From positions 2,314,789 to 2,378,788 of the forward strand of contig NZ_CM001776.1 of NCBI RefSeq assembly GCF_000332275.1: 64,000 nucleotides of DNA, in the 5' to 3' direction. The DNA is from Synechococcus sp. PCC 7336. Its GTDB lineage: Bacteria; Cyanobacteriota; Cyanobacteriia; Thermostichales; PCC-7336. How positions within the stretch are numbered: position 1 is the first letter of the stretch; every line of letters begins with the position of its first letter. The position numbers were made by a program, and so were the translations under genes. The notes under the pieces were generated by a model. The model did not search any database and had not been told where the DNA came from. It worked only from the letters and a program-made list of their open reading frames with translations. This document shows positions 22,036 through 32,780 of the stretch, piece after piece.

Positions 22036-22282
22036 ATCTTAACGATATTGTAACTTCACTTCTTATTTAGCAAGGGACTGTAATAGAGGCTCGGAGCCTT
22101 GTCAGATAAGCTCCTTAAGGGTTTCACCTTGGCTGGAGAAGGGCGAAATCGGGATTTTTGGCTGGCTCCACCCCGGTGCGAGTCTGCAGTACGTTAACTT
22201 ATGTGCGGCGCTTTTTGAGTAAAATGTAAAGGATTAATAACTTCGTTGCCCCGAGCTCTCCGTGCAAAGAGTTTCCACTGGT

Positions 22283-22663
22283 ATGTCCTTCTCGCTAGCG
22301 CCAAGCCAATGGAGGCAAGCAATAGCTGCAATGGGTATTGTTTTGTTGCTAGGGACTTTACTGTATTTTGGAATTGGCCGCTGGCACCAACCCGATTCCT
22401 ATACTCTTGCCGTGCTCCAGCTCACTGGCGATCCGGCCAAAGGGGAAACGCTATTTGCGATGAATTGTGCTGGCTGTCACGGTACAACGGCAGAGGGTCA
22501 TGTCGGCCCTAGTTTGCATGGCGTCACCGATCGCCGTTCCGATATTGCTTTAATCGAGCAGGTCACTAGCGGCAAAACGTTGCCAATGCCCCAGTTTCAG
22601 CCCGAACCCGAAGCGATGGCCGACCTGTTGAGTTATCTGAAAACTCTGTCGCCGCGACCTTAG
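22283..22663 (+). CDS. cytM: Cytochrome cM
   Basis: 126 aa, with an N-terminal hydrophobic signal or anchor (AIAAMGIVLLLGTLLYFGIG) and one class-I c-type haem site CAGCH followed by GPSLHGVTDRRSD. The likely axial Met lies in TLPMPQF, near the C-terminus. Length and layout fit cytochrome cM, a low-abundance membrane-bound cytochrome linked to respiration and stress metabolism in cyanobacteria. The ATG at 22283 is preferred over a GTG seven codons upstream. A 30-aa ORF follows after 22 bp. Confidence 0.85.
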   Translation: MSFSLAPSQWRQAIAAMGIVLLLGTLLYFGIGRWHQPDSYTLAVLQLTGDPAKGETLFAMNCAGCHGTTAEGHVGPSLHGVTDRRSDIALIEQVTSGKTLPMPQFQPEPEAMADLLSYLKTLSPRP

Positions 22664-25677: not shown

Positions 25678-28023
25678 ATGACACAATCCCCCGATCGCAA
25701 TCTCCCCCTCTGCCATCCCTGGAGCAGGATCTTGAAGGGAGCCAGTAGCCAATCTCTCAACCGCGTGCTGCCAGTCCTCAAGCATGCGGCCAATTATAGT
25801 TTTGCAGTCGCGTTACTGACGGCAGCCCACGGTTCTAAGTTTTACAACGAGCCCCGTTTGACGGCTGGAGAACTAGCCCCCGAAACGTTGGTGGCTCCAT
25901 TCGCCGCCGAGATTGTCGATCCAGAAGCCACGGCGGCATTAGAGGCGCAAATTCGGGCAGAGGCCACCCAATTTTTGCAGGTGGACCCTCGTGCCAATGC
26001 CCAAATGCAGGACAACCTAGCACGGCAATTGCAGATAGGGGAGGAATTGCGCCAGAGCGTAGGGCTGCCTCCCTATATTCCTCGCTCCTTGCTGTCGCTC
26101 GCCGCCCAGCAGTATTTCCAACAGCTGTTGCCGGAGGAGTGGGAAGCCTTGTTGGCGGCGATTGATGGCGCTGTAGTGGAGGAATTACCGACAGAGGCTC
26201 TGCTACCGGCCAGTGAGTTGGGGGGGCTGCGACAGGAGCTTTTGTCCCCCTCCAACGAGGGCAGCATCTCCTTTGCCGAGTTGGTGGCCAGAATTGAAGC
26301 AGCTCAGCAACGCTACCAATTGACGCGGGGACAATTGCAGGAGACTGGCTGGTCCCCCGACCTACTGCAGTGGAGCTCGGCAGAATGGACAGATGTGAAA
26401 CGAACCTTGCCCGAGGCTCTGCGACGGCTGCAGGCGATCGGTCTCGCGCAGGGGCTTCCACCAGACCTGCAGCGCGAGGGCATTGCCGCTCAATTAGAAT
26501 CTTTACCCGAATCGCTACGACCGGTGGCGATTCAGCTATTGGATAGTGTAGTGCAGCCGAACTTGCTAATTAATCGCCAGCTCACGCAAGAGCAGTTGCA
26601 GTCTCAGCTCGATCGCATGCAACCCGTGACGATCGCTGTGGAGCGCGGCAGCGATATCGTCATGAGAGGGGAACCGATCGACTCGACGCAATTTGCCATT
26701 TTGGACCATTACAACCTGACGCAGCGGCGCTTGAATGTGGGGGGCTTGCTGCAGGTGGGGGGCATGATGGCGGGGGCGATCGCCATTTTTGTGCCGTTGC
26801 AAAATTGGATTCGACCCACCCTGCGCAGCCGCGATCGCCTCCTGCTGCTACTACTGGCCAGTACCGTCGCCCCCACTGCCAGCATCTTCGGCGTGCAGTC
26901 GAGTGCATTACCGGCTGTCGGGTTGTTGGCGGGGAGTTTTTACGGCGGGCTCTTGGGCTTGTTAGTCCTGGGTGGAGCAGCGGCTTTGCTGCCCGTGGCG
27001 ACGGAGGTGACAGCAGTAACGCTGGGACCGGTCTTAGCGGGCAGCCTGTTGGCTTGTCTGGTGGCACCGCGCTTGCGATCGCGCGAGGATCTCGCCTTAT
27101 TAGGGGGAGGAGCAGCCTTAACCCAAGCGGCAACCTACGGCTTGCTGTCTCTAGCGACAGGCAATCCCTTTCAGGCAGTCCAAATGGCGATCGCGGGGGG
27201 TTCCGGTTTACTGTGGAGTGTGGCAGCTTTGGGGGCTAGCCCCAATCTCGAACTCTTATTCGATCTGGTCACCCCCATTCGTCTGGCGGAACTGGCCAAT
27301 CCCAACCGCCCCTTGCTGCGCCGCCTCGCGGACGAAGCTCCCGGCACCTTTCAACACACCCTCTTTGTGGCTTCGCTGGCCGAGCGGGCAGCCCAAAGAC
27401 TCAAGCTCAATGCCGAATTGGTGCGCACGGGCACCCTCTATCACGACATCGGCAAAATGCTGCGCGCCCAATACTTTATAGAAAACCTCAAGGGTGCCCC
27501 CAACCCCCACGAGGCGTTGAATAATCCCTATCGCAGCGCCGAAATCATTCGAGACCACGTGAGCGACGGTCTCAAGCTGGCCCGCCAATACCGCTTGCCC
27601 ACCGCCATCCGCGCCTTCATTCCCGAACACCAGGGCACGATCCGCATCGCCTACTTCTACCACCAGGCTCAAGTGGAATCCCCCAACAATCCGCCGGAGG
27701 AAGCCGCCTTTCGTTACGACGGCCCGATTCCCCAAACGCGCGAGACAGGGGTGGTGATGTTGGCAGATGCTTGCGAAGCGGCGTTGCGGAGCTTGCGCAA
27801 ACGCGAGGAAGGAGAGGAAGTCGTCTCGCCCGAGATGGCCAAACGGATGATTCTCAGTATCTTTCGCAATCGTTGGGAGGACGGCCAGCTCGTCGATAGT
27901 GGCTTGATGCGAAAAGACCTCGAAGCGATCGCCGAGGTCTTCTTACAAGTTTGGCAGGATTCTTCCCACGAGCGCATTCGCTATCCGCAGCCGCTGATGG
28001 TAGGAGCGGGCAGATCGGTATAG
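25678..28023 (+). CDS. 7TM-HD membrane phosphohydrolase (PgpH-type)
   Basis: 781 aa. An N-terminal helix is followed by a large extracytoplasmic 7TMR-HDED-type domain (to ~360), a cluster of about seven membrane helices (~361-530) and a cytosolic HD domain. The HD residues are seen in HTLFVASLAERAAQ (about 559) and YHDIGK (about 588), with PEHQGT downstream. The family includes PgpH, which hydrolyses cyclic di-AMP, a messenger in cyanobacterial osmotic and day-night physiology. GGAGG precedes the ATG. Confidence 0.92.
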   Translation: MTQSPDRNLPLCHPWSRILKGASSQSLNRVLPVLKHAANYSFAVALLTAAHGSKFYNEPRLTAGELAPETLVAPFAAEIVDPEATAALEAQIRAEATQFLQVDPRANAQMQDNLARQLQIGEELRQSVGLPPYIPRSLLSLAAQQYFQQLLPEEWEALLAAIDGAVVEELPTEALLPASELGGLRQELLSPSNEGSISFAELVARIEAAQQRYQLTRGQLQETGWSPDLLQWSSAEWTDVKRTLPEALRRLQAIGLAQGLPPDLQREGIAAQLESLPESLRPVAIQLLDSVVQPNLLINRQLTQEQLQSQLDRMQPVTIAVERGSDIVMRGEPIDSTQFAILDHYNLTQRRLNVGGLLQVGGMMAGAIAIFVPLQNWIRPTLRSRDRLLLLLLASTVAPTASIFGVQSSALPAVGLLAGSFYGGLLGLLVLGGAAALLPVATEVTAVTLGPVLAGSLLACLVAPRLRSREDLALLGGGAALTQAATYGLLSLATGNPFQAVQMAIAGGSGLLWSVAALGASPNLELLFDLVTPIRLAELANPNRPLLRRLADEAPGTFQHTLFVASLAERAAQRLKLNAELVRTGTLYHDIGKMLRAQYFIENLKGAPNPHEALNNPYRSAEIIRDHVSDGLKLARQYRLPTAIRAFIPEHQGTIRIAYFYHQAQVESPNNPPEEAAFRYDGPIPQTRETGVVMLADACEAALRSLRKREEGEEVVSPEMAKRMILSIFRNRWEDGQLVDSGLMRKDLEAIAEVFLQVWQDSSHERIRYPQPLMVGAGRSV

Positions 28024-28561: not shown

Positions 28562-30754
28562 ATGTTTTCAAATGTTCCTGAAAAACAGATGCATCGCGTT
28601 CGATGGGTGCTAACCATTGCCTGGATCGTTCTGATCGTCTCCCTTTTCTACGATCCCATCTCCCCTTGGCTGACCGATCCTTCCAATGCGGCTAGTCCCT
28701 TACGTCTCTACTTAAGCGATCCATCAAATCCTACTAGCCCCTTGAGAATCGATCCCGATATCTGCGTTCGGGTGCAGGGAGCATGCCTCGAAGAGAGTCC
28801 TTATGCCTTGGGCGCACCAATTTTTTGGGGAATGGTTATTCCCACCGCTGTATTTATTTTATTGGTGTTCGGTCACGATCTGTGGCGACGGATTTGTCCG
28901 CTATCGTTTTTGTCTCAGATTCCGCGAGCTTTAGGCTGGGAGCGCAAACGCAAACGGGTAAATGAGAAAACAGGAAAAGTGCGGTATGAATTGGTTAAAG
29001 TAGCTAAAGATTCTTGGCTGGCCAAGAATCACTTTTACCTTCAACTTGGGCTTTTCTTCATCGGACTTTCAAGTCGAATTCTGTTCGTTAATTCCGATCG
29101 GATTGTCTTGGGCGTCTTTCTCATTGGGACTATCTTGGCTGCGATCTCAGTTGGTTTTCTATATGGCGGTAAATCCTGGTGCCAGTATTTTTGTCCGATG
29201 GCTCCGGTACAAAGAATTTACGCCGAACCCAGAGCGATTCTTAACAGCACCGCTCACGCTGGCGATCGCCAACTGGTAACCCAATCGATGTGCCGTACCG
29301 TAGCGAAAGATGGCAAAGAACTCAGCGATTGCGTGGCCTGTAAAAGTCCCTGTATCGACATTGATGCCGAGCGATTGTATTGGGAGAGCGTGACCGAGCC
29401 CAAACAGCAGTGGCTCTACTACGGCTATACGGGGGTTGCGGTTGGATATTTCATTTATTACTATCTCTACTCCGGCAGTTGGGAATATTACTTCTCGGGT
29501 GCGTGGGCGCACGAAGCCGATCAACTGGGTAGTCTTTTCGATGCAGGATTTTATTTGTTCGGCACCCCGATTGGCATTCCAAAACTGATTGCAGTTCCGA
29601 TTACCCTAGCTATTTTCACAGTGGGTGGATACCTGCTCGGCCGCACTTTAGAACAGCGCTTCAAGGTCTTTTATCTCCGACAGAAGAAATCTGTCGACAA
29701 GGGACTCATTCGTCACCGGGTTTTCTCTCTATCGACATTTTTTATTTTCAACTTCTTCTTTGTTTTTGCCGGTCGAAATTTTGTCCGTCTCTTTCCAGAT
29801 CCACTGCGGCTTTTCTTTCCGCTGCTAATTGTTTTCTGCAGTGCTGTGTGGCTGCATCGCACCTGGCCCAGAAGCCGCACTACCTACCAGAGGGAAGGCT
29901 TTGCCTCTCGACTGCGCAAACAGCTCAAGAAACTCGATCTCGATATTTCTCGATTTTTGGAAGGACGCACCCTCAACAGCCTCAATGCTGATGAAGTGTA
30001 CGTTCTAGCCAAGGTTCTGCCGGGATTTTCTCAAGAAAAACGCCTGCAAGCTTATAAGGGGGTTTTACGAGACTCGCTTGAAGAAGGCTATGCTAAGCCC
30101 GATAGTAGTTTGGAAACTTTCCAGCAACTGCGCCAGGAATTGCAAATTTCCGATCGCGATCACGAAACAGTCCTGCAACAGCTAGAGGCCGAGCTCCCCG
30201 ATCTGTTCAATCCGAACAAGCCTCACGAGTGGGAAAACCTGTTGCGTTTGGAAAGTTATCGAGAAGCGCTATTGGAAATCATTTTGGAGTCTTGGAAAGC
30301 CAATTCAGATCGATCGCATATTGGCGATCTATTGCGCGCCTTTTCGAGTAGCAGTTCTAATGTCTCTCTGGAAGAAATTGTGCGAGGCTTGCCTGAATCC
30401 GATCTGGCAACCATCAGTACCATTCGTCAGGAATACGGTATTAGTTCGGATGACGAAACAGATGCCCTCAAACTGACAAACCCAGACGAGCTATGGCATT
30501 TATTGGCTGGCACCATTGGGATTTCGGGTGTTTTAGAGTCCGAGCAAAATGCCATTCTGGAAAAAGTGTTTCAACAAATCGACGCCGATCGCTCGGGCGA
30601 TATCTCTCTCCCAGAGCTAATGGCATACATCAAGACCCTAGATCCAGACTGTACCGAAGCTCAAATTCGCGAAATGGTGGAGATGGCAGATGAGAACTCT
30701 GACAACAAAATTAGTTATGACGAGTTTTGTGCCACGATCGTCTGTCGGATCTAA
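28562..30754 (+). CDS. Polytopic membrane iron-sulfur protein with C-terminal EF-hands
   Basis: 730 aa from an ATG with GGAG 6 nt upstream. Several membrane helices (first at about 15-35) frame cysteine motifs like those of the NapH/CcoG/NosR ferredoxin-type membrane proteins: RICPLSFLS, WCQYFCPMAPVQ (Cys ~206 and ~210), then C-x12-C-x2-C-x3-C (CRT...CVACKSPC, ~243-263). Helices continue to ~430. A soluble helical region follows and ends in two EF-hands: DADRSGDISLPE (about 673-684) and DENSDNKISYDE (about 709-720). This suggests a calcium-gated electron-transfer membrane protein, similar in logic to EF-hand NADPH oxidases. Redox partners are unknown. Confidence 0.85.
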   Translation: MFSNVPEKQMHRVRWVLTIAWIVLIVSLFYDPISPWLTDPSNAASPLRLYLSDPSNPTSPLRIDPDICVRVQGACLEESPYALGAPIFWGMVIPTAVFILLVFGHDLWRRICPLSFLSQIPRALGWERKRKRVNEKTGKVRYELVKVAKDSWLAKNHFYLQLGLFFIGLSSRILFVNSDRIVLGVFLIGTILAAISVGFLYGGKSWCQYFCPMAPVQRIYAEPRAILNSTAHAGDRQLVTQSMCRTVAKDGKELSDCVACKSPCIDIDAERLYWESVTEPKQQWLYYGYTGVAVGYFIYYYLYSGSWEYYFSGAWAHEADQLGSLFDAGFYLFGTPIGIPKLIAVPITLAIFTVGGYLLGRTLEQRFKVFYLRQKKSVDKGLIRHRVFSLSTFFIFNFFFVFAGRNFVRLFPDPLRLFFPLLIVFCSAVWLHRTWPRSRTTYQREGFASRLRKQLKKLDLDISRFLEGRTLNSLNADEVYVLAKVLPGFSQEKRLQAYKGVLRDSLEEGYAKPDSSLETFQQLRQELQISDRDHETVLQQLEAELPDLFNPNKPHEWENLLRLESYREALLEIILESWKANSDRSHIGDLLRAFSSSSSNVSLEEIVRGLPESDLATISTIRQEYGISSDDETDALKLTNPDELWHLLAGTIGISGVLESEQNAILEKVFQQIDADRSGDISLPELMAYIKTLDPDCTEAQIREMVEMADENSDNKISYDEFCATIVCRI

Positions 30755-31046: not shown

Positions 31047-32780
31047 CTACACCAAAATTCCCTCTTGCCACTGGCGGACTGAATTCATCCAGATAATCCG
31101 ATCGCACGCTCGCAATTCCTCCACCGCGATCGCACGCTCGTGCAGCTTGCCCCGTTGGAGTAAGTGCTGCCGAAATGTCCCCGCCAAGAGACCGCACTCC
31201 ACAGGTGGGGTAAACCATTCTCCATCCAGCTCGATCGCAAGATTCCCCCAACAGGCTTCCGTTACCTGATTGCGCTCGTTCCACAGCACCACATCGTCAC
31301 CATCGGGATGGGCGGCAAGGGCTGACTCGTAGACTTCGCGATGGCTGGTTTTGTGGAACAAAAAGAGATTGCTCGAATCAATCGGACGATCGGCCAGTTT
31401 CAAGCGGATTGCTGCAGGCATTTCTGGGGCAACGATCGCCGCAAATGTATGACCGATCGACCCTTTGCGATCGACTAAAATCCGCACCTTGTGGGGCTGA
31501 GGGGACAACTGTACGGCAATCTTCTCTAACTCGCACTCCACATCGGCGATGGCGAGCGGGATCTGGAAATAGCGGGCAGACCGTTCCAGCCTGAAAAGGT
31601 GCTCGGCTAACAAGAAATATCCCGCCGGGGGCTGCCATAACAGCGTTTCCAGCAACGAAAACTCTGGCAACCGGTAGGTCAACACCCGCGACTTTTCCAC
31701 ACATTCGGCATATTCGCGATCGCTGGTGGAGTCCCAGACCACGCCACTACCGACGCCATACTCCGCCTCTCCCGCAGCCTTATCCACCACCACCGTCCGA
31801 ATCGCCACATTAAATTGGGCCGCCCCGTCCGGTCGAATCAGCCCCAGGCAACCGGTGTAAAGCTTGCGCGGCGAGGTTTCCAAAGCGGCGATCGCCTCCA
31901 TTGTGCGGGCTTTCGGCGCTCCGGTAATCGAAGCACAGGGGAACAGCGCTCGCATCGTGTCGGTCAGCGAGGTTCGCGCCATTGCCGTCACGGTCGAAGT
32001 CATTTGGTGAATGCTGGGATACTGTTCCACCTCAAACATCTGGGGCACCTTCACTGTTCCCAGCTCGGCAATGCGCCCGATATCGTTGCGGATCATGTCC
32101 ACAATCATCAAATTTTCGGCTCGATCTTTTGGGGATCGCTGCAGCCACCCTCGGTTCGCGGCATCCTCTGCCAGCGTTCGACCCCGTGCTGCTGTGCCTT
32201 TCATCGGGCGCAACTCCACCCGATCGCCTAGTTTGCGGAAAAACAGCTCGGGAGAGGCGGAGCAGATGGCAAACTCGTCGGTTTCGAAGTAGGCACAATA
32301 GGGGGTGGATTGGGCTTGCACCAAATCGAGGAACAGCGGCCAAGCGCTCCCTTGAAAGTGCGATCGCAACCGGAAGGTGAAATTGACTTGATAGGTTTCG
32401 CCGCAGGCAATCTGGGTTTTGATGCGGGCGATCGCCGAGCGATAGTCCTCTAGCGAAATATCGGGTTTCCAATTCGTCAGATGGTAGCGCTCCTCCGATC
32501 GCTCGGGAAGCTGAACGGTTTCGATCGCATCGAATAGAGCAAAATACAGCAGCGGAAAATTCCTTGAGGGCTGCGTTTGCAAGACCGAATCGAAGGCGGG
32601 AGATGCTTCGTAACTAATAAAACCGACGGCATGCCATTGCTGCTGAGACACCAAGGTTTCCACCTGCTCCAGCGCAGGCAGCACATCATCGAGGCAATCG
32701 GCCCGAATAACTTGGCAAGGGCGATCGCAGCGCAGCCAGCGATCGCCTGTAAAGTCTCGAATGACAGTCTTGACGGCCAT
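31047..32780 (-). CDS. pabB: Fused aminodeoxychorismate synthase component I / aminodeoxychorismate lyase (PabB-PabC)
   Basis: About 577 aa catalysing two steps of p-aminobenzoate synthesis for folate. Residues ~1-365 are PabB, the chorismate-binding domain: GETYQVNFTFRL, RPMKGTAARGR (catalytic Lys), ENLMIVDMIRNDIGR, ASITGAPKARTMEAI, GVGSGVVWDS. Residues ~370-577 are the class-IV PLP-dependent lyase: HKTSHREVYESAL (likely PLP Lys) and a substrate-binding LAGTFRQHLL. The amidotransferase PabA must be encoded elsewhere. ATG 32780 (MAVKTVIRDF) is preferred over a TTG 12 codons upstream. Confidence 0.93.
   Translation of the reverse strand: MAVKTVIRDFTGDRWLRCDRPCQVIRADCLDDVLPALEQVETLVSQQQWHAVGFISYEASPAFDSVLQTQPSRNFPLLYFALFDAIETVQLPERSEERYHLTNWKPDISLEDYRSAIARIKTQIACGETYQVNFTFRLRSHFQGSAWPLFLDLVQAQSTPYCAYFETDEFAICSASPELFFRKLGDRVELRPMKGTAARGRTLAEDAANRGWLQRSPKDRAENLMIVDMIRNDIGRIAELGTVKVPQMFEVEQYPSIHQMTSTVTAMARTSLTDTMRALFPCASITGAPKARTMEAIAALETSPRKLYTGCLGLIRPDGAAQFNVAIRTVVVDKAAGEAEYGVGSGVVWDSTSDREYAECVEKSRVLTYRLPEFSLLETLLWQPPAGYFLLAEHLFRLERSARYFQIPLAIADVECELEKIAVQLSPQPHKVRILVDRKGSIGHTFAAIVAPEMPAAIRLKLADRPIDSSNLFLFHKTSHREVYESALAAHPDGDDVVLWNERNQVTEACWGNLAIELDGEWFTPPVECGLLAGTFRQHLLQRGKLHERAIAVEELRACDRIIWMNSVRQWQEGILV

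Follow-up and report, generated by a model that had tools for sequence, protein, structure and literature searches.

The excerpts of the literature considered here describe several systems that come close to the protein reported below. NapH-like proteins are thought to move electrons across the membrane (PMC8238504), and relatives of the NapH, NosR and CcoG type have been proposed as electron-transfer links between quinols, or other donors, and partners on the extracytoplasmic side (PMC8238504, PMC5928378). In NOX5, calcium permits the transfer of electrons from NADPH to FAD (PMC11088703). Calcium signals have been described in cyanobacteria and their signalling mechanisms called virtually unknown (PMC7065334); CSE (asr1131), according to the same source the one calcium sensor known in Anabaena, is linked there to C/N balance and photosynthesis. 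Cyanobacterial EF-hands have also been reported in fusion with a 7TM domain, with NOS and with an NADPH oxidase bearing ferredoxin domains (PMC7016017). The available text of a review on cyanobacterial redox signalling (PMC13421787) mentions neither EF-hands nor calcium, and a search of the open-licence literature returned no paper recognisable as being about the present protein family.

The protein is encoded in a stretch of 64,000 nucleotides from Synechococcus sp. PCC 7336, hereafter the window (Table 1). Its open reading frame is intact from ATG to stop; since relatives begin at the same methionine, an alternative TTG start 12 bases 5' of the ATG is not needed. The preceding ORF ends at 28023 and the following one, at 31047, lies on the opposite strand. 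As the ORFs on either side are separate, the gene is probably transcribed alone. Promoter and terminator scans at the gene gave signals no higher than shuffle level, and an Rfam scan found no RNA match at the gene and one tRNA elsewhere. At 22262-22663 of the window, a small ORF has a CAGCH motif and an N-terminus resembling a membrane anchor, and looks c-type cytochrome-like by eye; it is unlinked to the gene studied here.

Table 1. Features of the gene and its product (positions are those of the window).
Feature	Position	Strand	Basis or remark
Whole gene, membrane Fe-S/EF-hand protein, 730 aa	28562..30754	+	Start backed by relatives
Membrane core, aa 1-450, eight predicted helices	28562..29911	+	Hydropathy, loop charges, AlphaFold
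C68 and C75, predicted extracytoplasmic Cys pair between TM1 and TM2	28763..28786	+	Row conservation
First motif, W108-R-R-I-C112-P	28883..28900	+	Trp where CX3CP relatives have the first Cys
Second motif, C207-Q-Y-F-C211-P, predicted cytosolic end of TM4	29180..29197	+	Pfam Fer4_5; 141/141 rows
C244-X12-C257-X2-C260-X3-C264, probable [4Fe-4S] ligand set	29291..29353	+	141/141 rows
Cytosolic helical linker (predicted), aa 439-650	29876..30511	+	First part common to EF, cNMP and FHA forms
EF-hand pair, aa 666-724	30557..30733	+	Pfam, fold match; sole PF13499 match in genome
EF loop 1, aa 674-685, DADRSGDISLPE	30581..30616	+	Canonical
EF loop 2, aa 710-721, DENSDNKISYDE	30689..30724	+	Canonical

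Hydropathy and AlphaFold together predict membrane helices at residues 7-29, 84-111, 152-176, 180-201, 280-304, 341-373, 380-403 and 413-434. The AlphaFold models are of high overall confidence (pLDDT 84.7 and 85.9) but of low confidence in the cysteine loop 238-261. The loop after helix 2 contains 14 Lys/Arg against 5 acidic residues and is therefore predicted to be cytosolic; the alternation of helices then places the loop that follows helix 4, and the C-terminus, on the same side, and both termini of the protein are predicted in the cytosol. This placement would put C112, C207, C211, C244, C257, C260 and C264 at the cytosolic face, and C68 and C75 on the opposite side. No confident Pfam family was found in the linker. 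Fold searches of the whole model against PDB and BFVD returned the EF-hands only, or nothing; the core model had no PDB match above Z 3.0 and no confident fold, with NapH, NosR and CcoG chains absent among the matches listed, and a sequence profile search of PDB gave no match.

The core cysteines stand out by their conservation. C207, C211, C244, C257, C260 and C264 are cysteine in 141 of 141 aligned rows, the window protein counted, which rules out a chance arrangement. C112 is cysteine in 139 of the 141, the two exceptions being an apparently frameshifted row (L018) and one cut at a contig edge (L151). H385 is invariant in the same alignment and W108, where present, is never another residue. 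C68 and C75 are near-invariant in cyanobacterial rows and missing from the three rhizobial ones. The first-pass annotation had described ferredoxin-type cysteine motifs between membrane helices, a reading that hung on conservation of the cysteines among homologues. That conservation is borne out by the counts above, and the motifs do fall between helices (predicted TM2/TM3 and TM4/TM5), but they are not standard CX2CX2CX3CP repeats. The Pfam model Fer4_5 (PF12801) scores the window protein at 20.8 bits (E=3.7e-4), under its cut-off of 22; relatives L060 (22.1) and L105 (29.2) pass this value, and L024, L025 and L103 fall below it. From these patterns, the 730-residue protein very probably carries iron-sulfur clusters. 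We infer that C244, C257, C260 and C264 would bind one [4Fe-4S] cluster and that, by analogy with NapH/NosR-type proteins, C112, C207 and C211 may ligate another centre at the membrane surface, perhaps a site-differentiated one.

Comparison with the described membrane Fe-S families places this one at a distance. In one-on-one hhalign comparisons, the core matched FixG with a probability of 78% over 140 columns, NapH (28%) and YccM (20%) weakly, and NosR (5%) without significance; the CcoG/RdxA/FixG model TIGR02745 gave the window protein 10.6 bits, below its NCBIfam cut-off of 316.7. Both CX3CP motifs are complete in FixG, NapH, YccM and NosR, whereas in the window protein the second is complete and the first reads WRRICP. 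Because of these profile scores and of the tryptophan in the first CX3CP, the family is, by sequence comparison, a distant and divergent relative of NapH, NosR or CcoG, not a member of any of them. Electron transfer through Fe-S centres is indicated by the invariance of the cysteines across receiver classes (see below), together with the distant FixG/CcoG likeness and the motif matches to NapH and YccM.

The EF-hands lie at the C-terminus. EF-hand_7 (PF13499) covers residues 666-724 with 45.4 bits (E=1.1e-11) against a cut-off of 30, EF-hand_1 matches two stretches, and the modelled segment 657-730 superimposes on the C-lobe of troponin C over 73 residues (Z 13.2, rmsd 1.6; AlphaFold and VIA-align). 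As in a calmodulin-like pair, there are two helix-loop-helix units with ligands at positions 1, 3, 5 and 12. Over 27 EF-hand rows, the first loop keeps D1, D3 and S5 in all and E12 in 26; the second keeps D1 in 24, D5 in 26 and E12 in 27. Chance EF-hands are ruled out by the Pfam E-value (about 1e-11) and this ligand conservation. A likeness to the XopAW effector (NCBIfam 28.6 bits, cut-off 120) involves the EF-hands only and was read as a general EF-hand match. The source genome holds a single PF13499 match, in this gene. The earlier claim that two canonical EF-hands close the protein thus holds, and the doubt it carried, that they might be unable to bind calcium, finds no support as far as sequence tells. 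The pair is ligand-complete and, as a predicted calcium sensor, working-looking.

A member of the family (E<=1e-20) occurs in 173 of the 388 genomes of a class-wide sample. The EF-hand form, defined here as a match reaching query residue 720 or beyond, was present in at least five of the 388 (G000, G222, G265, G347 and G270) among the matches listed. Scanning named genomes yielded 461 relatives; the best 80 of the 461 were kept and 27 of these 80 have EF-hands, a share that is inflated because the query was itself the EF form. Carriers of EF-hands include Trichodesmium, Okeania, Crocosphaera, Nostoc, Planktothrix, Microcystis, Xenococcus and a Phormidesmis-like strain, and copies of the family gene lie on plasmids in Leptolyngbya, Kovacikia, Synechocystis, Rhizobium and Agrobacterium. 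A viral origin was rejected: 30 pattern matches in viral contigs included no relative. The source genome also has a cNMP-type paralogue (L116:8500-11349), which carries an extra cysteine pair (CPLNACP) before its cNMP domain.

In a quickly built core tree of modest support, the EF-hand rows require two changes and form one group with two EF-less rows (28 and 2 rows, SH-aLRT 83). By this tree, the EF-hand version is nearly a single clade across cyanobacteria. Two members of the EF clade, L040 and L045, have no EF-hands, so that calcium would be dispensable in some members. These EF-less members, with the absence of the glycine at position 6 of the second loop in the window protein and in other rows, would suit EF-hands that are constitutively loaded and serve as a structural or docking surface without regulatory function. 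We consider such a role improbable: the side-chain ligands at positions 1, 3, 5 and 12 of the first loop and 1, 5 and 12 of the second are conserved, and the alternative modules found at the same place in sister forms are all signal receivers.

Among the first family set of 109 proteins, the C-terminal receivers were cNMP in 62, EF-hands in 28, FHA+cNMP in three, FHA in two, none in 12 and other modules in two. Gene neighbourhoods differ between these forms; the neighbour counts that follow include closely related loci (L002 and L116 are one gene, and the cores are identical within L004/L061 and within L005/L084) and were made without L147 and L148 (the same contigs as L103 and L034), L001, L075 and the window's own locus. 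A gene for an FHA-FAD-NAD-Fer2 ([2Fe-2S]) reductase, complete with FAD, NAD and Fer2 signatures, lies directly downstream in 22/31 loci without a receiver, 4/11 FHA+cNMP loci and 2/2 FHA loci, and a WD40-Ser/Thr kinase adjoins the short forms, with their FHA-reductase operons, in 18 of 28 loci. The combination of reductase and kinase, first met in a few loci, was then tested on 20 further short-form loci, a part of the class-wide match list chosen by frame length. The reductase was present at 18 of these 20, and at 16 the kinase lay beside the gene. One short form outside these 20 (L153) has no reductase. In two Leptolyngbya boryana plasmids (L024, L028), the kinase/Fe-S/reductase operon also comes with CHRD-domain and RTX-like proteins; the 'EFhand' label that the L024 record gives the Fe-S protein has no Pfam backing.

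Other sister forms keep other company. In six of the 11 FHA+cNMP loci, a nucleotide cyclase that bears a Tll0287-type haem-Cache domain is encoded divergently, and CXXCH is kept in all six; signalling-fused domains of this haem-Cache family are credited with NO-sensor properties (PMC12889525). One FHA+cNMP form adjoins genes for a mechanosensitive-channel protein that itself bears a cNMP domain and for a CheW-like protein (L105:1902-3365 and L105:3728-4261). The cNMP forms have no reductase (0/47 loci), and have nitrate-transporter genes within 1 kb in 14/42 loci and a ParA-like gene in 8/42; within 6 kb, nrt genes were found at 11/34 cNMP loci against 0/21 EF loci. The cNMP form is often encoded immediately 3' of the nrtABCD genes or divergently from them (L041, L046, L060, L066, L077; also L081-L084, L086, L087, L096, L107 and others), which suggests that it is linked to nitrate assimilation. 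Crocosphaera-type cNMP forms (L063, L071, L072, L076, L085, L091, L104, L152) are preceded on the same strand by genes for a ParA/MinD-like ATPase and for a small conserved protein that NCBIfam does not match.

These neighbourhoods bear on two further explanations. Kinase, cyclase, CheW-like and MscS-cNMP genes near some copies, and the incomplete first CX3CP motif, could mean that the Fe-S core senses redox state or a gas as part of a signalling complex, carrying no bulk electrons, with the C-terminal domains integrating second messengers. We regard this as quite unlikely, given that no operon partner is commoner than a complete FAD/NAD(P)H/[2Fe-2S] reductase and that no output domain is recognised in the core itself. 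The protein might otherwise be a factor for the assembly or maintenance of a metal centre, like CcoG/FixG or NosR, making one electron delivery per cofactor, with the receiver setting the timing. FixG is indeed the best distant profile match, a single copy per genome is common, and in Rhizobium and Agrobacterium a MauG/MbnH-like di-haem gene is divergent from the family gene, the rhizobial FHA forms also adjoining an annotated response regulator, an ATP-binding protein and the reductase. Against such a factor, which we hold to be unlikely although it deserves attention, no gene for a cytochrome oxidase or Cu protein was noticed as a repeated neighbour, and the recurrent NAD(P)H reductase, kinase and cyclase fit regulated turnover better than one-off maturation.

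The loci of the EF form are bare by comparison, with no reductase downstream (0/29) and no kinase, cyclase, nrt, ParA or MauG-like neighbour (0/26). The source genome has no full-length match to the FHA reductase, only partial reductase matches and ferredoxin-like ones. As EF loci lack a conserved partner and the genome lacks the full FHA reductase, the donor and acceptor named below for the EF form are guesses.

By analogy with its sister forms, we lean slightly towards the 730-residue protein being a calcium-controlled electron carrier in the membrane. A cytosolic donor (for the sister forms an NAD(P)H reductase, here probably a ferredoxin) would deliver electrons to the core, which would pass them to a membrane or extracytoplasmic acceptor, either a quinone or a partner on the side of the C68/C75 dithiol. 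Calcium bound to the EF-hand pair would alter the linker and so set donor docking or electron flow. In sister subfamilies, the same core would be controlled by phosphorylation (FHA) or by cyclic nucleotides, the C-terminal module acting as an exchangeable receiver. That module is read as a true receiver because FHA pairs with a kinase and cNMP with a cyclase, and the EF-hand pair is taken as a calcium receiver by analogy with these pairings; the core is read as an electron carrier because sister forms have a reductase partner. For the EF form, both readings are extrapolations from sister subfamilies. The calcium-gated electron route that the first-pass annotation raised as a possibility is backed in outline, as a possible gate.

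The sister receivers found at the same place suggest that electron carriers controlled by signals make up this family, with the window protein as its calcium version. In its fullest form, a tentative proposal that we judge rather less probable than not, cyanobacteria and some rhizobial plasmids would encode signal-gated Fe-S electron valves with a non-canonical second centre and a receiver swapped between Ca2+, cyclic nucleotides and phosphorylation, the window protein being the calcium-gated route and its genome's only EF-hand-pair sensor. If the route is calcium-gated, it would tie cytosolic calcium directly to bacterial membrane electron flow by a path unrelated to NOX; with the sister operons (kinase/Fe-S/FHA reductase, and cyclase with FHA-cNMP Fe-S protein), three signal systems would act on one redox core.

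The window protein shares with NapH, NosR, PceC(RdhC), CcoG(FixG) and YccM the helices that bracket CP-type cysteine motifs at the predicted cytosolic face. It differs from NapH, YccM and FixG in having C-X12-C-X2-C-X3-C in place of their C-terminal CX2CX2CX3C ferredoxin motifs, and from all five in its eight predicted helices and long cytosolic C-terminus with a receiver domain; Pfam found no extracytoplasmic FMN domain. With NOX5 and DUOX, it has in common a membrane redox core and an EF-hand pair, to which sister subfamilies add a FAD/NAD(P)H reductase as a separate protein, but it has Fe-S cysteines and its EF-hands are at the C-terminus. Pfam searches up to E=1 found neither ferric-reductase transmembrane nor FAD/NADPH dehydrogenase domains, and a NOX homologue is ruled out for want of this domain support. 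The resemblance to the logic of EF-hand NADPH oxidases that the first-pass annotation proposed therefore survives in part: in sister forms a reductase gene follows and the receiver often matches a neighbouring signal source, but EF loci have no such reductase and the protein is not a NOX homologue. Like CSE, it is a cyanobacterial two-EF-hand protein, whereas CSE is small and has no membrane or Fe-S part. The annotation also knew of no characterised cyanobacterial redox protein with this layout; since PMC7016017 reports EF-hands joined to other redox proteins of cyanobacteria, an EF-hand/redox fusion in cyanobacteria is not unprecedented, although its available text names no Fe-S membrane core, and the 7TM class described there may include the present family.
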